Below are positions 1,059-8,265 of a stretch of DNA of 21,013 nt, piece after piece. The stretch spans positions 1 through 21,013 of IMG/VR virus record IMGVR_UViG_3300032334_000447; one strand, 5' to 3'. Made by a program: the position numbers and the translations under genes. This stretch comes from a virus. Numbering within the stretch: the stretch's first letter is position 1; every line of letters begins with the position of its first letter. Under the pieces are notes generated by a model. The model made no database searches and was not told where the DNA came from. It saw nothing but the letters and a program-made list of their open reading frames with translations.

Positions 1059-3152
1059 ATGAAGAATGAATTCAAACTCAGATTTTTTGGTGACGATTCT
1101 GGCGAGTCGTTGAAAAGTTTCATCAAAGAAAGTGCATCAAAAGCAGCATCCGAAACATTCGATAAGTTAATTCCTTCTGAAGAAAAGCCTATCGTTGCAG
1201 AAGATGTTGTCAAGATTGCTGCTGAGTTATTATATACTACACCCGCTACAAAACGGATCGTGACCGAAGAAAAATCAGTAGCAGTTGTAGAAGAACCAAA
1301 GAAACAAAAAACTATTCTTGAATCTAAATTTGAAACTCTACAGAAATCTCTATCAGAAGATCTGCGAGAATATAAACAAAAAATTATCGAAGAAGTTTCA
1401 AAGTCTGCAAGTAAACAAAATCCATATTATCTGGGCGACAGTGGTTCTGGAGAAGTTAAACTCCTTTCACTAGATGATGTTGAAACAAAAAATATGAGTA
1501 GACAAGCAAGATCGTCATATCTTGCCAACAATGCCATGATGGTTTATGATACGGCAGATAAGTTATTTCATTTTAAATATGCACTGAATCAAGACTTACT
1601 ACAAAGTTCTAATGTTTATTTTAATAACATTGAAGCTTCAGGAAACGTCAACGTTGGTGGTCAAGTTTTTGTAACGTCAGGAGTTACTGGTAATATTGAT
1701 CTTACTGTATCTGGCAATACATCTATTGGTAAAGATCTTACCGTATCTGGCAACACCATTCTACGAGGTAATCTACTCGTCACAGGTTACACAACTACCG
1801 TTAATACAAGTTCTTTAATCATAAGTGATGCGTTATTTCACTTAAATGACGTTTCTACTACATCGAATGTAGATCTAGGTTTCACTGGCAATTACAACGA
1901 TGGTACATATCGGCACGCTGGATTGTTCAGAGATTCAGTTGACGGTGTGTGGAAATTGTTTGATGGATATACACCAGAAACTAATACTGCGGTAAAAATT
2001 CTTACCAACAATGCTAGTTATGTTGATGCAGGACTCAAAGTTGGTAACTTGACCGCGAACGGTAACACAAGTATAACAAAATCATTGACGGTAACAAGTA
2101 ACGTTACTGCTGGAAACTTGAACACACTTGGCGTTGCTAACGTTGGAACCTCGATCATCACCGGACTAACTGCAAGTAAACCAGTATTCACAGATGCAAA
2201 TAGAGCGTTGACTTCTTCTGGCACTATGCCAACAAATCAAGGTGGTACTGGACTAACATCGTTTACATCATCTGGAATTGTTTATGCATCTTCGACTTCC
2301 GCATTAACTACAGGATCTTCTTTACAATTTGACGGTACTAATTTAACAGTTACTGGTAACGTTACTGCTGGTAATATAAACACACTTGGTGTTGCTAACG
2401 TTGGCAACTCTATCGTCACTGCGTTAACTGCAAGTAAACCAGTATTCACAGATGCAAATAAAGCGTTGACTTCTTCTGGCACTATGCCAACAAATCAAGG
2501 TGGTACTGGACTAACGACGTTCACTTCTGGTGGAGCAGTATATGCGTCATCAACTTCAGCTCTAACTACTGGAACATTACCAACAGGATCTGGTGGTACT
2601 GGATTAACATCTTTTACATCAGCGGGACTTGTTTATGCATCTTCAACATCAGCGTTAGCGACTGGTTCAACTTTACAATTTGATGGTACTAATTTTGGTG
2701 TTGGATTAACTCCAGTCACCAATAATGGTGTTCTTCAGTTAGGTAGTTACGCAGCAATTAAATCATTAGTCGAATCTGCAACTATCACTGGTGCTGCTCC
2801 ATCATCCACAACAAACTTTGATTGGACAACACAAGCAGTCCAATACTACACAAGTAATGCGACGACTAACTTCACATTGAATATTCGAGGTAATGGAACA
2901 ACATCATTGAACACGGTGATGCAAGTCGGACAATCAGCATCTATTGCATTGATGATCACAAATGGTTCTTCTGCATACTATCCTAACGTATTTCAGATTG
3001 ATGGAACAACAACGAATGTGAATACTAAGTTTCTGAACGGGACAACAATTTCCTCAGGTAATGCAAACAGTATAGATATTTACAATATTACAGTAATTAA
3101 AACTGCAGCATCTACGTATACTGTTTTAGTCCAACAGAATAAGTTTGCTTGA
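1059..3152 (+). CDS. Repeat-containing fibre-like virion protein (697 aa)
   Basis: I do not recognise a named T4 counterpart. Residues 1-130 are charged and probably helical (SFIKESASKAASETFDKL, ESKFETLQKSLSEDLREYK). From about residue 185 the protein is rich in Gly, Asn, Thr and Ser with beta-repeat character: repeated VSGNT/LTVTGN/VTAGN units, then an 86-residue module in tandem (starting near residues 349 and 435) carrying TASKPVFTDAN, ALTSSGTMPTNQGGTGLT and VYASSTSALTTG, plus a partial third copy near residue 510. GGTGLT(S/T)F repeats of this kind are common in phage tail fibres and cyanophage structural proteins, and the C terminus (NSIDIYNITVIKTAASTYTV) resembles a C-terminal module I associate with marine T4-like virion proteins. 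A virion fibre or appendage role is inferred. Its position between portal and prohead-core genes is odd for a tail fibre. The start follows the gene 20 stop closely; AGGA lies 13 nt upstream. Confidence 0.7.
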   Translation: MKNEFKLRFFGDDSGESLKSFIKESASKAASETFDKLIPSEEKPIVAEDVVKIAAELLYTTPATKRIVTEEKSVAVVEEPKKQKTILESKFETLQKSLSEDLREYKQKIIEEVSKSASKQNPYYLGDSGSGEVKLLSLDDVETKNMSRQARSSYLANNAMMVYDTADKLFHFKYALNQDLLQSSNVYFNNIEASGNVNVGGQVFVTSGVTGNIDLTVSGNTSIGKDLTVSGNTILRGNLLVTGYTTTVNTSSLIISDALFHLNDVSTTSNVDLGFTGNYNDGTYRHAGLFRDSVDGVWKLFDGYTPETNTAVKILTNNASYVDAGLKVGNLTANGNTSITKSLTVTSNVTAGNLNTLGVANVGTSIITGLTASKPVFTDANRALTSSGTMPTNQGGTGLTSFTSSGIVYASSTSALTTGSSLQFDGTNLTVTGNVTAGNINTLGVANVGNSIVTALTASKPVFTDANKALTSSGTMPTNQGGTGLTTFTSGGAVYASSTSALTTGTLPTGSGGTGLTSFTSAGLVYASSTSALATGSTLQFDGTNFGVGLTPVTNNGVLQLGSYAAIKSLVESATITGAAPSSTTNFDWTTQAVQYYTSNATTNFTLNIRGNGTTSLNTVMQVGQSASIALMITNGSSAYYPNVFQIDGTTTNVNTKFLNGTTISSGNANSIDIYNITVIKTAASTYTVLVQQNKFA
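2167..2515 (+). repeat. Tandem 258-bp coding repeat in the fibre-like gene
   Basis: Two in-frame copies have a period of 258 bp (86 codons). The block 2167-2257 recurs at 2425-2515 with a single mismatch over 91 bp (TAGAGCG versus TAAAGCG), and similarity extends more loosely from 2103 and 2361. A partial, more diverged third unit covering the GGTGGTACTGGA..ACATC..TTTACATC part lies around 2593-2690. Such near-identity at the DNA level points to recent duplication or gene conversion. Confidence 0.9.
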
Positions 3153-3158
3153 TAAATA
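3151..3158 (+). promoter_or_regulatory. Possible late promoter box GATAAATA
   Basis: GATAAATA is a 7/8 match to the T4 late box TATAAATA and overlaps the fibre-gene stop codon, just before the gp67-like gene. With normal late-promoter geometry the start site would fall near 3164, inside the AGGAG ribosome-binding site at 3161-3165. It may therefore serve genes further downstream, or be fortuitous. Confidence 0.35.
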
Positions 3159-3172
3159 ATAGGAGATAACAT

Positions 3173-3337
3173 ATGGAAAACAATATTAAAAACATAGTAA
3201 ATCACGCATTCGATGACAATCCTGTAGGAATGCGTGATGCACTATACAATGAAATTAATGATAAGATTTTCGCGGCGATTCAACAACGCAAGATTGAAAT
3301 TGCTGCATCCTTATTAGAACCTAAAGAATCGGAATAA
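3173..3337 (+). CDS. 67: gp67-like prohead core protein, short form (54 aa)
   Basis: This is a short ORF with an ideal AGGAG ribosome-binding site (3161-3165), encoding MENNIKNIVNHAFDD... to ...SLLEPKESE. Its middle, NPVGMRDALYNEINDKI followed by QQRKIEIAASLL, resembles the N-terminal half of T4 gp67 (from memory, a DLVAARKLFAE-type helix followed by KEEKIAIAR), a minor prohead-core component that helps form the scaffold with gp68 and gp22. The position also fits: T4 has the order 20-67-68-21. T4 gp67 is about 80 residues and ends in a long acidic tail that is absent here. An LLE at residues 47-49 could be a gp21 protease site, though the following residue is Pro. Assignment rests on weak similarity plus synteny. 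Confidence 0.6.
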   Translation: MENNIKNIVNHAFDDNPVGMRDALYNEINDKIFAAIQQRKIEIAASLLEPKESE

Positions 3338-3341
3338 ACAA

Positions 3342-3884
3342 ATGGCAAATAGATATTCATATCAAGTTCTGAAAGATGATACACAACATGCAATCATCAA
3401 ACTAACTGCTGAGTTTGATGGTACTGGTCAAGAAAGTAACATCTCTAGAATTGCAGCAAATTCTTTGTCTGGTGCATTAGCAACTAATGGATATCTTGTT
3501 GCAAACAATCAGGGTGGTTCCGCAAACACTCCTTTACCATATTATGGATTGTCGATTCATCGACTATGGTATGATTCGGATACTGCAACTGGTGACGTTC
3601 AACTGTATTGGGCAAATACTGCAACAACAGCAGCTAATGGCGTTCCTATAGTCTTCTTACAAGGTAATGGAGAATATGATGGCAACGCCAACTGGATCAC
3701 GATCAAAAATCCAACTGTTGGTGCAAACATGAATGGTGACATTGCACTAGTCACACGCGGCCAAGTTGCTAATGCTAGTTACACAATCGTGATGGAACTT
3801 CGTAAAGACAATGCACACTATCAACGTGGTCAGTTTACTGATCCTGCTGCATTCAACTATACGCCATTTAACATGCGCCCATAA
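3342..3884 (+). CDS. Conserved T4-like structural-type protein (180 aa)
   Basis: No T4 homologue is recognised. The sequence begins MANRYSYQVLKDDTQHAIIK and ends YQRGQFTDPAAFNYTPFNM, a pattern I associate with an uncharacterised family in marine T4-like phages. It is rich in aromatic, Asn, Gly and Thr residues with alternating beta-type segments (VQLYWANT, IVFLQGNGEY, YTIVMELRKD), has no membrane segment or signal peptide, and has one small charged C-terminal region. It begins 4 nt after the gp67-like stop and its stop overlaps the gene 68 start (TAATG), so translation is probably coupled. The location inside the prohead-core cassette suggests a head or neck-associated virion protein; that is inference only. 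Confidence 0.7.
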   Translation: MANRYSYQVLKDDTQHAIIKLTAEFDGTGQESNISRIAANSLSGALATNGYLVANNQGGSANTPLPYYGLSIHRLWYDSDTATGDVQLYWANTATTAANGVPIVFLQGNGEYDGNANWITIKNPTVGANMNGDIALVTRGQVANASYTIVMELRKDNAHYQRGQFTDPAAFNYTPFNMRP

Positions 3885-4315
3885 TGTCAATCGCCTCAAG
3901 TATAATTAGTGGAGATTATAGTGGTGCAAAAGCATTACTTGAGGCAAGAATAGAAGAGATATTCTACGAGAAGTTAGAGGAGATAAGAGAAAGATTAGTT
4001 GATGAAATTTATGGTGATTATGAAGAAACATTGGATGCATTGGATGAAGCTTCAATTCACAATGTTCAAAAAATTGGCAGAACGAAACTAATTAAACTTC
4101 GTGTTCGTGGTGGCAAAGTACAGAGAAGGAAGAAACTTTCTGGCGTTCGAGGTTACACACTTCGAGGTGGCAGAATGGTTAGAATGTCAACAACTGAACG
4201 TAGAAATAGAAGAATGGGTGCAAGAAAAGCAAAGATTAAACGTCGAACAAAGATGAATCAAATTCTTAGAAAAAGAAAAGTATCACTAAGAAAAAGAAGG
4301 AATATAGGGTTATGA
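3884..4315 (+). CDS. 68: Prohead core protein gp68
   Basis: The length of 143 residues matches T4 gp68 (about 141). The first half is acidic and helical (EARIEEIFYEKLEEIRERLV). The second half is strongly basic, with the family's RVRGGKVQRRKKLSGVRGY and TLRGGRMVRMS segments followed by Arg/Lys-rich helices to the C terminus (RKRKVSLRKRRNIGL). In T4 this is a scaffold-core component needed for correct head length and is processed by gp21. A candidate gp21 site is LDE|A at residues 53-56. The gene overlaps its upstream neighbour by one base and its stop overlaps the gene 21 start (ATGA), indicating coupled translation and tight stoichiometric control of core and protease. Confidence 0.88.
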   Translation: MSIASSIISGDYSGAKALLEARIEEIFYEKLEEIRERLVDEIYGDYEETLDALDEASIHNVQKIGRTKLIKLRVRGGKVQRRKKLSGVRGYTLRGGRMVRMSTTERRNRRMGARKAKIKRRTKMNQILRKRKVSLRKRRNIGL

Positions 4316-4956
4316 AACTAATTAAAGAACTCGTTGAGTCAGTCTCTTATCTCGTTGAGGAGACGGATGGGAAAAAGACCATGTTCATCGAGGGACCATT
4401 TCTCGTTTACGATCAAAAGAATCGCAACGGTAGACTTTACGAAAAGCATGTTCTACATAAAGAAGTCAACCGATACATGGAAGATTATGTTAATAAGAAT
4501 AGAGCATTCGGTGAGTTAGGTCATCCAGAAACACCAACAATTAATCTCGAACGTGTTTCACATCTGATTACACATCTACACGATAACGGGCAACATTGGG
4601 TAGGTCGAGCAAAAATTCTCGAAACGCCAATGGGCAATATTGCAAAAAATCTGATTGACGGTGGCGCACAACTCGGTGTCTCTTCACGAGGCATGGGTTC
4701 TTTAGTTAATAAGAACGGTGTCAATGTCGTTCAACCAGACTTTCATCTTGCCACAGCGGCAGATATTGTAGCAGATCCTTCCGCTCCTGGTGCATTCGTG
4801 CAAGGGATAATGGAAGGAAAAGAATGGATGTTAGTAAACAATGTTTGGACTGAAGTTCATCTTCAAGAAGCAAAACAAGAAATTGTAAAGGCTTCTAAAA
4901 AAGATATTGAAAAAGTCAGTTTACGCATTTTTGAAAATTTCATTAGAAAACTTTAA
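4312..4956 (+). CDS. 21: Prohead maturation protease gp21
   Basis: The protein is 214 residues (T4 gp21 is 212) and belongs to the herpesvirus-assemblin-like serine protease family. The active-site neighbourhoods are visible: His71 in GELGHPETP, the nucleophile region Ser124/Ser125 in QLGVSSRGMG, and Asp151 in TAADIVADPSAP. The N-terminal strand FIEGPFLVYDQKNRNGR is typical of the family. The zymogen is assembled into the prohead core, self-activates, then cleaves gp23, gp22, gp68 and other core proteins at (L/I)xE sites before DNA packaging. The start codon overlaps the gp68 stop (ATGA). A late promoter box follows 3 nt after the stop, separating it from gene 22. Confidence 0.95.
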   Translation: MKLIKELVESVSYLVEETDGKKTMFIEGPFLVYDQKNRNGRLYEKHVLHKEVNRYMEDYVNKNRAFGELGHPETPTINLERVSHLITHLHDNGQHWVGRAKILETPMGNIAKNLIDGGAQLGVSSRGMGSLVNKNGVNVVQPDFHLATAADIVADPSAPGAFVQGIMEGKEWMLVNNVWTEVHLQEAKQEIVKASKKDIEKVSLRIFENFIRKL

Positions 4957-6268: not shown

Positions 6269-7618
6269 ATGTACTTATCGGAAGAACTTAAACAAAAATG
6301 GAGTCCAATTCTAGAGCATCCAGATCTAGAAGCAATTAAGGATCCATACAAGAAAGCTGTTACTGCAATGGTTCTTGAGAACCAGTCGCAAGCGATGGCA
6401 TCTGACCGTGCTAACATGGGCATGCTTAACGAGACGATCTCGTCGCCAGGTCCAGTTAACGCAACAGGCGCAGGTATCTCGAACTTCGATCCAATCTTAA
6501 TCAGCTTGGTTCGCCGTGCTCTACCTAACCTAATCGCTTATGATGTTGCTGGCGTTCAGCCAATGACAGGTCCTACTGGTCTTATCTTCGCAATGCGTGC
6601 TCGTTACTCAGGTCAAGCTGGTACCGAAGCATTCTTCAACGAGGCTAATACTCAGTTCTCTGGTATCGGTTCGGACACAAACCGTTTCGGTTTTGCAAAC
6701 AACCTAGTCTCTGATACAAGCACAAACCCAGTTGCTTCGTTGACTGCTAACGCATTCACATCTGGTATCGGTATGTCTACCGCTACTGGTGAATATCTAG
6801 GATCAGACAATGGTACTGCAAACACCCAGTTCGGTCAGATGGCATTCTCGATTGAGAAAGTTACTGTTACTGCACAGACTCGTGCTCTAAAAGCTGAGTA
6901 CTCGTTAGAACTCGCACAAGACTTAAAAGCAATTCATGGTCTTGACGCTGAGACAGAACTATCGAATATTCTTTCGACAGAGATCCTTTCTGAGATCAAT
7001 CGTGAAGTTATCCGTACCATCTATACAGTTGCTAAACCAGGCGCACAGTTTGGTGTTACAACAACTGGTACATTTGACCTAGACACAGACTCTAACGGTC
7101 GTTGGTCGGTTGAGCGTTTCAAAGGCTTGATCTTCCAAATCGAACGTGATGCAAACGTTATTGCTAAAGAGACTCGTCGCGGTAAAGGTAACGTCATGAT
7201 CGTTTCGTCCGACGTTGCTTCTGCAATGGCAATGGCTGGTGTTCTTCAGTATACACCTGCACTTTCGGCAGATCTACAAGTTGACGATACTGGTAACACA
7301 TTTGCTGGCTTGTTACATGGTCGCATCAAAGTATACATCGATCCATACTTCGGTGGTTACACAAGCAACCAAGAACTCGTCACAATCGGTTACAAAGGTT
7401 CGTCGCCTTACGATGCTGGATTGTTCTATTGCCCATACGTTCCTCTACAAATGGTTCGTGCAGTTGACCAGTTCACATTCCAACCAAAGATTGGATTTAA
7501 GACTCGTTACGGCATGGTTGCAAACCCATTTGCAGGCGGTTCGAACGTTGATTACGGTCAGTTGTATGCTAAGCGCAATACATACTATCGTATCTTCCGC
7601 GTTCAGAACTTGATGTAA
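6269..7618 (+). CDS. 23: Major capsid protein gp23
   Basis: This is the HK97-fold capsid subunit that forms the head lattice. Family signatures are plain: SLVRRALPNLIAYDVAGVQP, MTGPTGLIFAMRARY, LKAEYSLELAQDLKAIHGLD, ETELSNILSTEILSEINREV, and the C-terminal RTRYGMVANPF-like KTRYGMVANPFAGG. Length is 449 residues compared with 521 in T4, as is usual for marine relatives. The probable gp21 cleavage site is MLNE|T (after Glu55), aligning with T4 processing after Glu65, so mature protein would be about 394 residues. Codon choice appears richer in C-ending codons than the AT-rich neighbours, as expected for the most highly expressed late gene. It has its own late promoter, a strong ribosome-binding site and a terminator 32 nt downstream. 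Confidence 0.98.
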   Translation: MYLSEELKQKWSPILEHPDLEAIKDPYKKAVTAMVLENQSQAMASDRANMGMLNETISSPGPVNATGAGISNFDPILISLVRRALPNLIAYDVAGVQPMTGPTGLIFAMRARYSGQAGTEAFFNEANTQFSGIGSDTNRFGFANNLVSDTSTNPVASLTANAFTSGIGMSTATGEYLGSDNGTANTQFGQMAFSIEKVTVTAQTRALKAEYSLELAQDLKAIHGLDAETELSNILSTEILSEINREVIRTIYTVAKPGAQFGVTTTGTFDLDTDSNGRWSVERFKGLIFQIERDANVIAKETRRGKGNVMIVSSDVASAMAMAGVLQYTPALSADLQVDDTGNTFAGLLHGRIKVYIDPYFGGYTSNQELVTIGYKGSSPYDAGLFYCPYVPLQMVRAVDQFTFQPKIGFKTRYGMVANPFAGGSNVDYGQLYAKRNTYYRIFRVQNLM

Positions 7619-7716: not shown

Positions 7717-7914
7717 ATGTTAGTTCAATTAGAAGTAAATGGTTTAACAGTTGGCGTGGCTTTGGATGAAGGCGATAACATTGATTCCGCTATGGAATTA
7801 GTTGCACAAATCAAGGCATTAGCTGAAGATTTAGCACTATATGATAGCGTTGAAGTCTATATCGCTAGCGCAGATCTAGATGAGGAAGAAGAAGAGGAAG
7901 AGGAAGAGGAATAA
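7717..7914 (+). CDS. Small acidic protein with poly-Glu C terminus (65 aa)
   Basis: The family is not recognised. The start has an excellent AAGGAG at 7705-7710. The N-terminal two thirds (MLVQLEVNGLTVGVALDEGD, AMELVAQIKALAEDLALYD) look like a small alpha/beta fold, and the protein ends in Asp plus ten consecutive Glu residues written with mixed GAA/GAG codons. The protein is therefore strongly polyanionic. It lies between the gene 23 terminator and an Ig-like gene, and no clear late box lies in the 39 nt after the terminator, so it may be transcribed by read-through. A virion or head-core role is plausible from location, and acidic tails are known in prohead-core proteins, but no function can be assigned. 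Confidence 0.75.
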   Translation: MLVQLEVNGLTVGVALDEGDNIDSAMELVAQIKALAEDLALYDSVEVYIASADLDEEEEEEEEEE

Positions 7915-7938: not shown

Positions 7939-8265
7939 ATGACACATACCGTAACCGTTTCTATCGTTACAGAACAACATGAATTCGACAGTTCAGTTGT
8001 TTCTGGTGGAATTAGAGTTAGCCTAGGCGACGCTCGTGTACAATTTTTATCTCATGCACCATATGAAGTTGTTTTTGCAAATGTCGAAGCTGGTGATTAT
8101 ATTGTCACAGCAGTTGCAGTTGACACTAATGGAGTTGCATTAGGTGAAGCAATCACAGGATCAGTTTCTATTGCAGCAGATGTTCCACAACCAGAACTTA
8201 CACCTGTTGTTGAACAAAAAGTTATCGTAGACGTACCTGCTTCGTTGACAGTAACAGTTTCGTAA
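7939..8265 (+). CDS. Beta-rich Ig-like small protein, possible head decoration (108 aa)
   Basis: The protein is built of Thr/Val-rich strands: THTVTVSIVTEQHEF at the N terminus, then APYEVVFANVEAGDYIVTAVAVDTNG, ending in KVIVDVPASLTVTVS. The 'V.F.NV.AGDYIVTA.A.D.NG' pattern is typical of Ig-like/transthyretin-like beta sandwiches, often found as add-on domains on phage capsids. There is no signal peptide or membrane helix. The ribosome-binding site is AAGGAG at 7925-7930; a second ATG at 7934 is out of frame and too close to it. In T4 the Ig-domain decoration protein Hoc is also encoded in the region downstream of gene 23, which supports but does not prove a decoration role. The acidic gene lies 24 nt upstream and a 30-codon ORF follows. 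Confidence 0.65.
   Translation: MTHTVTVSIVTEQHEFDSSVVSGGIRVSLGDARVQFLSHAPYEVVFANVEAGDYIVTAVAVDTNGVALGEAITGSVSIAADVPQPELTPVVEQKVIVDVPASLTVTVS

Follow-up and report, generated by a model that had tools for sequence, protein, structure and literature searches.

A modular adhesin-type fibre encoded in the head gene cassette of an uncultured T4-like phage lineage, and a resident all-beta neighbour

T4-like phages are among the commonest aquatic viruses, and it is generally taken for granted that they recognise hosts through a single tail-fibre cluster. In pelagimyophages, the host-recognition cluster (HRC) sits between VrlC and gp14, and in both pelagimyophages and cyanomyophages it holds modular fibres and adhesins (PMC7029224). 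Fibres mounted elsewhere on the virion also have precedents, namely the capsid fibres of phage 7-7-1 and the neck fibres of A-1(L) and T4. The T4 fibritin (wac) whiskers and the A-1(L) fibres carry an N-terminal neck anchor, which in fibritin is combined with a swapped C-terminus; the A-1(L) neck-fibre genes are far from the other structural genes (PMC10966104). A further relevant family is the gp129 type of cluster C cyanophages, which combines a coiled coil with a GSGEV..LDDV module and whose S-CREM2 member was detected in virions by mass spectrometry, with 19 unique peptides (PMC10665884 Table 3).

The window analysed here, an IMG/VR virus fragment of 21,013 bases, encodes a fibre that resembles several of these systems in part. 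Its shaft is shared with an HRC fibre of a relative (E 3e-20), and phages with an HRC also have members of its tip family and of the glycine-rich adhesin family, but the gene lies between gp20 and gp67 and the N-terminus is different. Several relatives carrying the fibre have a glycine-rich adhesin gene right downstream, like the T4 gp37/gp38 pair, although location and sequence differ and the window itself lacks the adhesin gene. The N-terminal module is shared with the gp129 type, whereas the C-terminal half of gp129 is unrelated, and its gene lies before gp13 or elsewhere and is followed by one for a 1000–1900-aa protein. We found no sequence homology with T4 fibritin or the A-1(L) neck fibres.

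Gene order and distribution of the inserted gene

The window has a T4-like gene order: gp20, fibre, gp67-like, p180, gp68-like, gp21, gp22, gp23 and uvsY. The features of the head cassette are as follows.

19–1056, + strand: C-terminal 345 aa of the gp20 portal protein (Portal_T4, E 9e-123; phrog_213)
1059–3152, + strand: fibre ORF, 697 aa
1059–1592, + strand: fibre N-terminal anchor-type module, residues 1–178, charged helical/coiled-coil, then GSGEV..LDDV..YDT..FHF
1593–2723, + strand: fibre shaft, residues 179–555, a beta domain, then 86-aa and GGTG repeats
2724–3152, + strand: fibre tip domain, all-beta (phrog_5906, E 1.8e-22)
3173–3337, + strand: gp67-like prohead core protein, 54 aa (weak assignment; phrog_1064 'prohead', E 4.6e-4; phrog_683, E 1e-5)
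3342–3884, + strand: p180, 180 aa, all-beta, candidate capsid decoration protein
3884–4315, + strand: basic gp68-like protein of the prohead core, 143 aa including 39 K+R (marginal assignment at best, from phrog_3503 'head scaffolding', E 0.012, composition and position)
4312–4956, + strand: gp21 prohead protease (Peptidase_S77, E 1.5e-31)

The gp20 gene starts upstream of the window edge, the position of the gp67-like gene is conserved among relatives, and gp22 (E 1.5e-68) and gp23 (E 1.6e-143) were firmly identified with Pfam and PHROGs. Base 3884 is common to the TAA of p180 and the ATG of the gp68-like gene, a one-base overlap. The coordinates and order of the original prediction, which placed a 697-aa fibre-like protein between genes 20 and 67 and a 180-aa protein between 67 and 68 with stop-start overlap, hold throughout. 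After gp23 come two ORFs without a PHROG match, one of 65 aa that is very acidic (7717–7914) and one of 108 aa (7939–8265); uvsY (UvsY, E 1e-22) and other replication and recombination genes of T4-like type also lie beyond gp23. Because gp23 is only ~60–63% identical to those of the nearest cultured relatives (DLP6, Melnitz, HTVC008M and cyanophages), the lineage of the window is uncultured.

Related loci were gathered with p180 (50 loci) and gp21 (80 loci) and annotated with the window proteins. The fibre is carried by the window and 12 other IMG/VR contigs (L002, L004–L011, L025, L134 and L135), and its upstream neighbour is gp20 wherever a contig covers that side. An assembly chimera can be ruled out as the source of the layout, since the identical junction recurs in these 12 contigs. 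In a gp21 tree (IQ-TREE, 90 rows), the nine carrier rows occupied one side of a single branch (98/95; 96% of bootstrap trees). Among 67 distinct non-carrier relatives, gp20 is joined to gp67 in 66, and the one gap exceeding 100 nt (L099) is filled by an unrelated 358-aa ORF (L099:3223–4299). A profile of the fibre N-terminus, scanned against 2.9 million viral contigs, matched only at loci directly after gp20. In Melnitz-3, HTVC008M, S-PM2 and S-CREM2 the gp20–gp21 interval holds nothing but small genes, and that of DLP6 includes a 261-aa hypothetical protein. Run without a positive control, the fibre N-terminal query found nothing in ten long non-carrier records, nor did the GSGEV profile in twelve records. 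The insertion of the fibre gene, proposed from the window alone, is thus real, and it belongs to a single lineage.

The usual site of such genes is illustrated by a 174-kb non-carrier relative (G001). This genome has S74 proteins at 25–30 kb; at 31–33 kb comes a fibre of 629 aa with homology to the window shaft, and at 48–56.7 kb a run of glycine-rich adhesin genes (L244), with eight Gly_rich_2 matches in the record; gp13, gp14, gp15, gp16, gp17, gp18, gp19 and gp20 come directly after the adhesin array. Its fibres and adhesins are upstream of gp13, in agreement with the published HRC position (PMC7029224), and the expectation that the window fibre lies outside the usual fibre region was borne out, both for T4-like marine phages and for relatives within this lineage. 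The window fibre thus joins an HRC-type shaft and tip to another N-terminus, at another place. Between gp15 and gp16, the same relative encodes a small T4_gp9_10_N-like gene (59439–59999), and a carrier has a small Mtd_N-like gene there (L133:1174–1812; sub-threshold, 24.1 vs 26.3 bits); this spot close to the neck genes may be a further site for adhesins or connectors.

Fibre modules and possible location on the virion

The charged N-terminus and repeat-rich shaft ascribed to the 697-aa protein are both real: residues 1–125 are 36% DEKR, and the shaft is 7% charged and 53% TSGN, with two direct repeats at 258 nt spacing (84% identical) and three copies of a GGTG unit. Residues 179–345 are homologous to the 629-aa fibre of the non-carrier genome (31077–32966; phmmer E 3.1e-20), and the shaft matches the tail fibre family phrog_4549 (E 3.9e-6). 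Against cultured phages, the C-terminal tip alone passed E 1e-5 and the shaft-plus-N-terminus piece had no match; against PDB sequences, the fibre gave a chance-level match only. The window fibre contains the gp21-type cleavage motifs IKES, ILES and LVES, but IKES and ILES are changed in the more divergent carriers, so we make no claim of processing by gp21.

The distal part of the fibre is exchanged among close relatives. Carriers are mostly 95–99% identical to the window in gp20, gp21 and gp23 (exceptions being gp20 of L009, 89%, and gp21 of L025, 91%), and their fibre N-termini fall into a group at 79–83% identity and another at 38–42%. In L005 and L008, residues 1–432 are ~75% identical to the window fibre and are followed by unrelated C-termini that end in an S74 chaperone (PF13884, E 7e-13 and 1.7e-16); in L025, the mid-shaft is different and the tip is 83% identical to that of the window. 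The distal variants comprise the phrog_5906 tip alone, the tip with a glycine-rich adhesin gene, and the S74-chaperone tail. The glycine-rich gene lies directly after the fibre in L002, L009, L010, L011 and L025, and was confirmed as PF21722 (Gly_rich_2) in all three that were scanned (L002, L009 and L010). The tip family occurs in over 550 contigs from the environment, and at 18 of 71 further tip loci examined a glycine-rich gene is immediately downstream; as none of the 71 had the queried T4 head or replication genes in the fetched stretch, these loci do not help to locate the fibre.

A conserved N-terminus with distal modules swapped among close relatives, and homologues bearing known modules (S74, Gly_rich and tail-fibre PHROGs), are the marks of a receptor-binding fibre. 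The fibre-like character assigned to the 697-aa protein is upheld, in that a conserved N-terminus of attachment type is followed by a shaft with repeats and by a tip that can be exchanged, and very probably the protein is an adhesin fibre. It is a modular one, encoded outside the usual host-recognition cluster.

The N-terminal module points to where the fibre might be attached. It aligns with S-CREM2 gp129 and an S-B68 protein, with phmmer E values of 3e-3 and 2e-4 for the matches to these two phages. Alone, the 76-aa N-terminal piece matched S-CREM2 at E 0.2, a similarity strengthened by profile comparison (hhalign E 1.8e-5, probability 78%, over a short stretch of 75 columns). In S-CREM2 and S-B68, the gp129-type gene lies in the wac/neck region, where a very long gene and then a small one separate it from gp13/gp14, and in Makaravirus MA10 and S-H34 a gp129-like gene lies beside the RNR genes. 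The gp129–gp130 pair of cluster C cyanophages, both virion proteins in S-CREM2, occupies two different genome sites (MA10, L215:5539–10257; S-CREM2, L212:11350–17829). The similarity supports a role of the module in virion attachment and at most hints at a neck site. A structure prediction of the tip (AF2, monomer; pLDDT 92.8) had a sole PDB match below E 0.1 in Foldseek, the capsid spike of Pseudomonas phage Pa223 (9ny6_C; E 5.3e-3, prob 1.00), a weak resemblance (TM 0.45) to a protein of another phage type whose 'capsid spike' label comes from the PDB title alone; as a pointer to the head, the modelled fold is suggestive only.

Judged from the genes alone, mounting of the fibre on the head or neck, rather than the tail, has an even chance. 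The counter-point is that S74, Gly_rich_2 and phrog_5906 modules occur in tail fibres too, and a serious if less probable alternative is an ordinary tail fibre, attached to the baseplate and absent from head and neck, with a gene that was relocated to the head operon. The modules found in the exchanged tips are those typical of tail fibres (S74; phrog_28766, phrog_9942 and phrog_5668 tail fibre; Gly_rich_2) and the shaft resembles that of an HRC fibre. Nor is gene position decisive, as the distant A-1(L) neck genes and the MA10 gp129-like gene beside RNR show that it predicts virion location poorly. However, the N-terminus is unlike that of the shaft-sharing HRC fibre (MANTSIRIKRSS...), its module also occurs in a protein of the virion whose gene adjoins those of the neck, and the sequence revealed no relationship to any baseplate-attachment domain. 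Homologues annotated as distal tail fibres, which had been named in advance as evidence against a head or neck fibre, turned up for the tips and not for the N-terminus.

A collar or whisker fibre of the fibritin kind, one that helps to fold or retain the tail fibres and does not bind the host, would also suit a neck anchor. The module-sharing cyanophage protein is encoded in the wac region before gp13, the C-termini of T4-like fibritins are subject to modular swapping (PMC3797505), and A-1(L) neck fibres have a distal carbohydrate-binding module for which host binding was not seen (PMC10966104). We consider this improbable: the diversity of tips and the neighbouring glycine-rich gene resemble host-range evolution, and fibritin swapping reportedly took place long ago and has since ceased (PMC3797505), whereas in the present lineage even phages whose gp21 is 97% identical have different tips. 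The fibre had no Pfam match at E<=0.1 and no PDB sequence match to fibritin.

Our preferred reading, which we put forward tentatively, is that of a lineage-specific extra host-recognition fibre alongside an independent p180. The conserved coiled-coil/GSGEV module would anchor the fibre, presumably a trimer, on the virion, with the portal vertex or neck or the head surface as the likeliest site; the beta-repeat shaft would project outward; and the distal tip, sometimes with a separate glycine-rich adhesin, would bind the host surface and be replaced by recombination. The gene probably arose when HRC shaft and tip modules were joined to another N-terminal anchor and inserted behind gp20, so that the fibre would be made together with the head proteins. 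Such a fibre would be an addition to the tail fibres rather than one of them relocated.

The p180 family

The original prediction regarded the 180-aa protein as an inserted companion of the fibre, and in this respect it fails. A p180-family gene is present in every locus that reaches far enough upstream of gp21, fibre or no fibre, so p180 cannot depend on the fibre and is not peculiar to the window phage. The gene occurs with or without gp68 and is sometimes tandem. A companion or chaperone role is contradicted by the fibre-less relatives, and p180 is very probably no partner of the fibre. It is an all-beta protein that belongs to the head cassette independently of the fibre, and its gene is part of the standard set in the wider uncultured lineage.

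No Pfam match was found for the window protein, no PHROG match for 67 members of the family, and no PDB sequence match. The AF2 model is an all-beta sandwich (pLDDT 85.6, pTM 0.81) with no PDB match at E<1e-3, and its fold is close to proteins of uncultured phages in BFVD (TM 0.78). Among cultured phages, HTVC008M has tandem p180-profile matches at the same site before gp21 (71393–71797 and 71797–72183; E 3e-13 and 2e-9); these homologues (L128:6172–6576 and 6576–6962) are shorter, score 37–50 bits and are annotated as hypothetical. Tandem duplication with divergence was also seen in L038, L040, L056, L103, L119 and L124, and some other relatives lack a recognisable gp68. In many relatives (for example L009:7300–7998 and L058:6330–7043), gp67 and p180 are separated by a gene of ~70–237 aa starting MK[ST]LK[DE]F, which the window and the majority of fibre carriers lack; its start is reminiscent of T4 capsid-targeting sequences.

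A small beta-rich protein maintained among the head genes across a lineage is what would be expected of a decoration protein, and although neither fold nor sequence matched a known one, a place for p180 on the capsid surface is our best guess, at about even odds. A prohead core or head-completion protein is a possible alternative of somewhat lower probability: the gene lies between core genes 67 and 68, as an assembly gene might, and is single-copy in each of 12 records searched. Against this, p180 has a globular all-beta fold, its charge is low (14% DEKR, vs 30–39% for gp67, gp68 and gp22), it lacks the gp21-type cleavage motif of the core proteins, and a homologue in MW202796 (E 5e-10) lies three genes after the MCP.

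Implications for host range in T4-like phages

The placement of a modular adhesin fibre among the head genes is real and unusual, and its mounting on the head or neck is plausible. The fullest version of our proposal is unlikely as a whole, though worth stating: besides its tail fibres, a T4-like lineage would have acquired another means of binding hosts. This would be a trimeric fibre, encoded in the head operon and held at the head or portal vertex by a dedicated coiled-coil/GSGEV anchor, with exchangeable receptor-binding tips to which some members add a gp38-like adhesin; the heads themselves would be coated by p180 as a new all-beta decoration family.

The p180 family is a conserved, unnamed component of the head cassette in a large uncultured T4-like group, and its homologues in a cultured pelagiphage make it directly testable. 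The presence of a swappable adhesin fibre in a normally compact head cassette would mean that host-range determinants can lie outside the tail-fibre cluster, and surveys restricted to that cluster would miss them. If mounted on the head or neck, the protein would represent a receptor-binding head or neck fibre in a T4-like phage.
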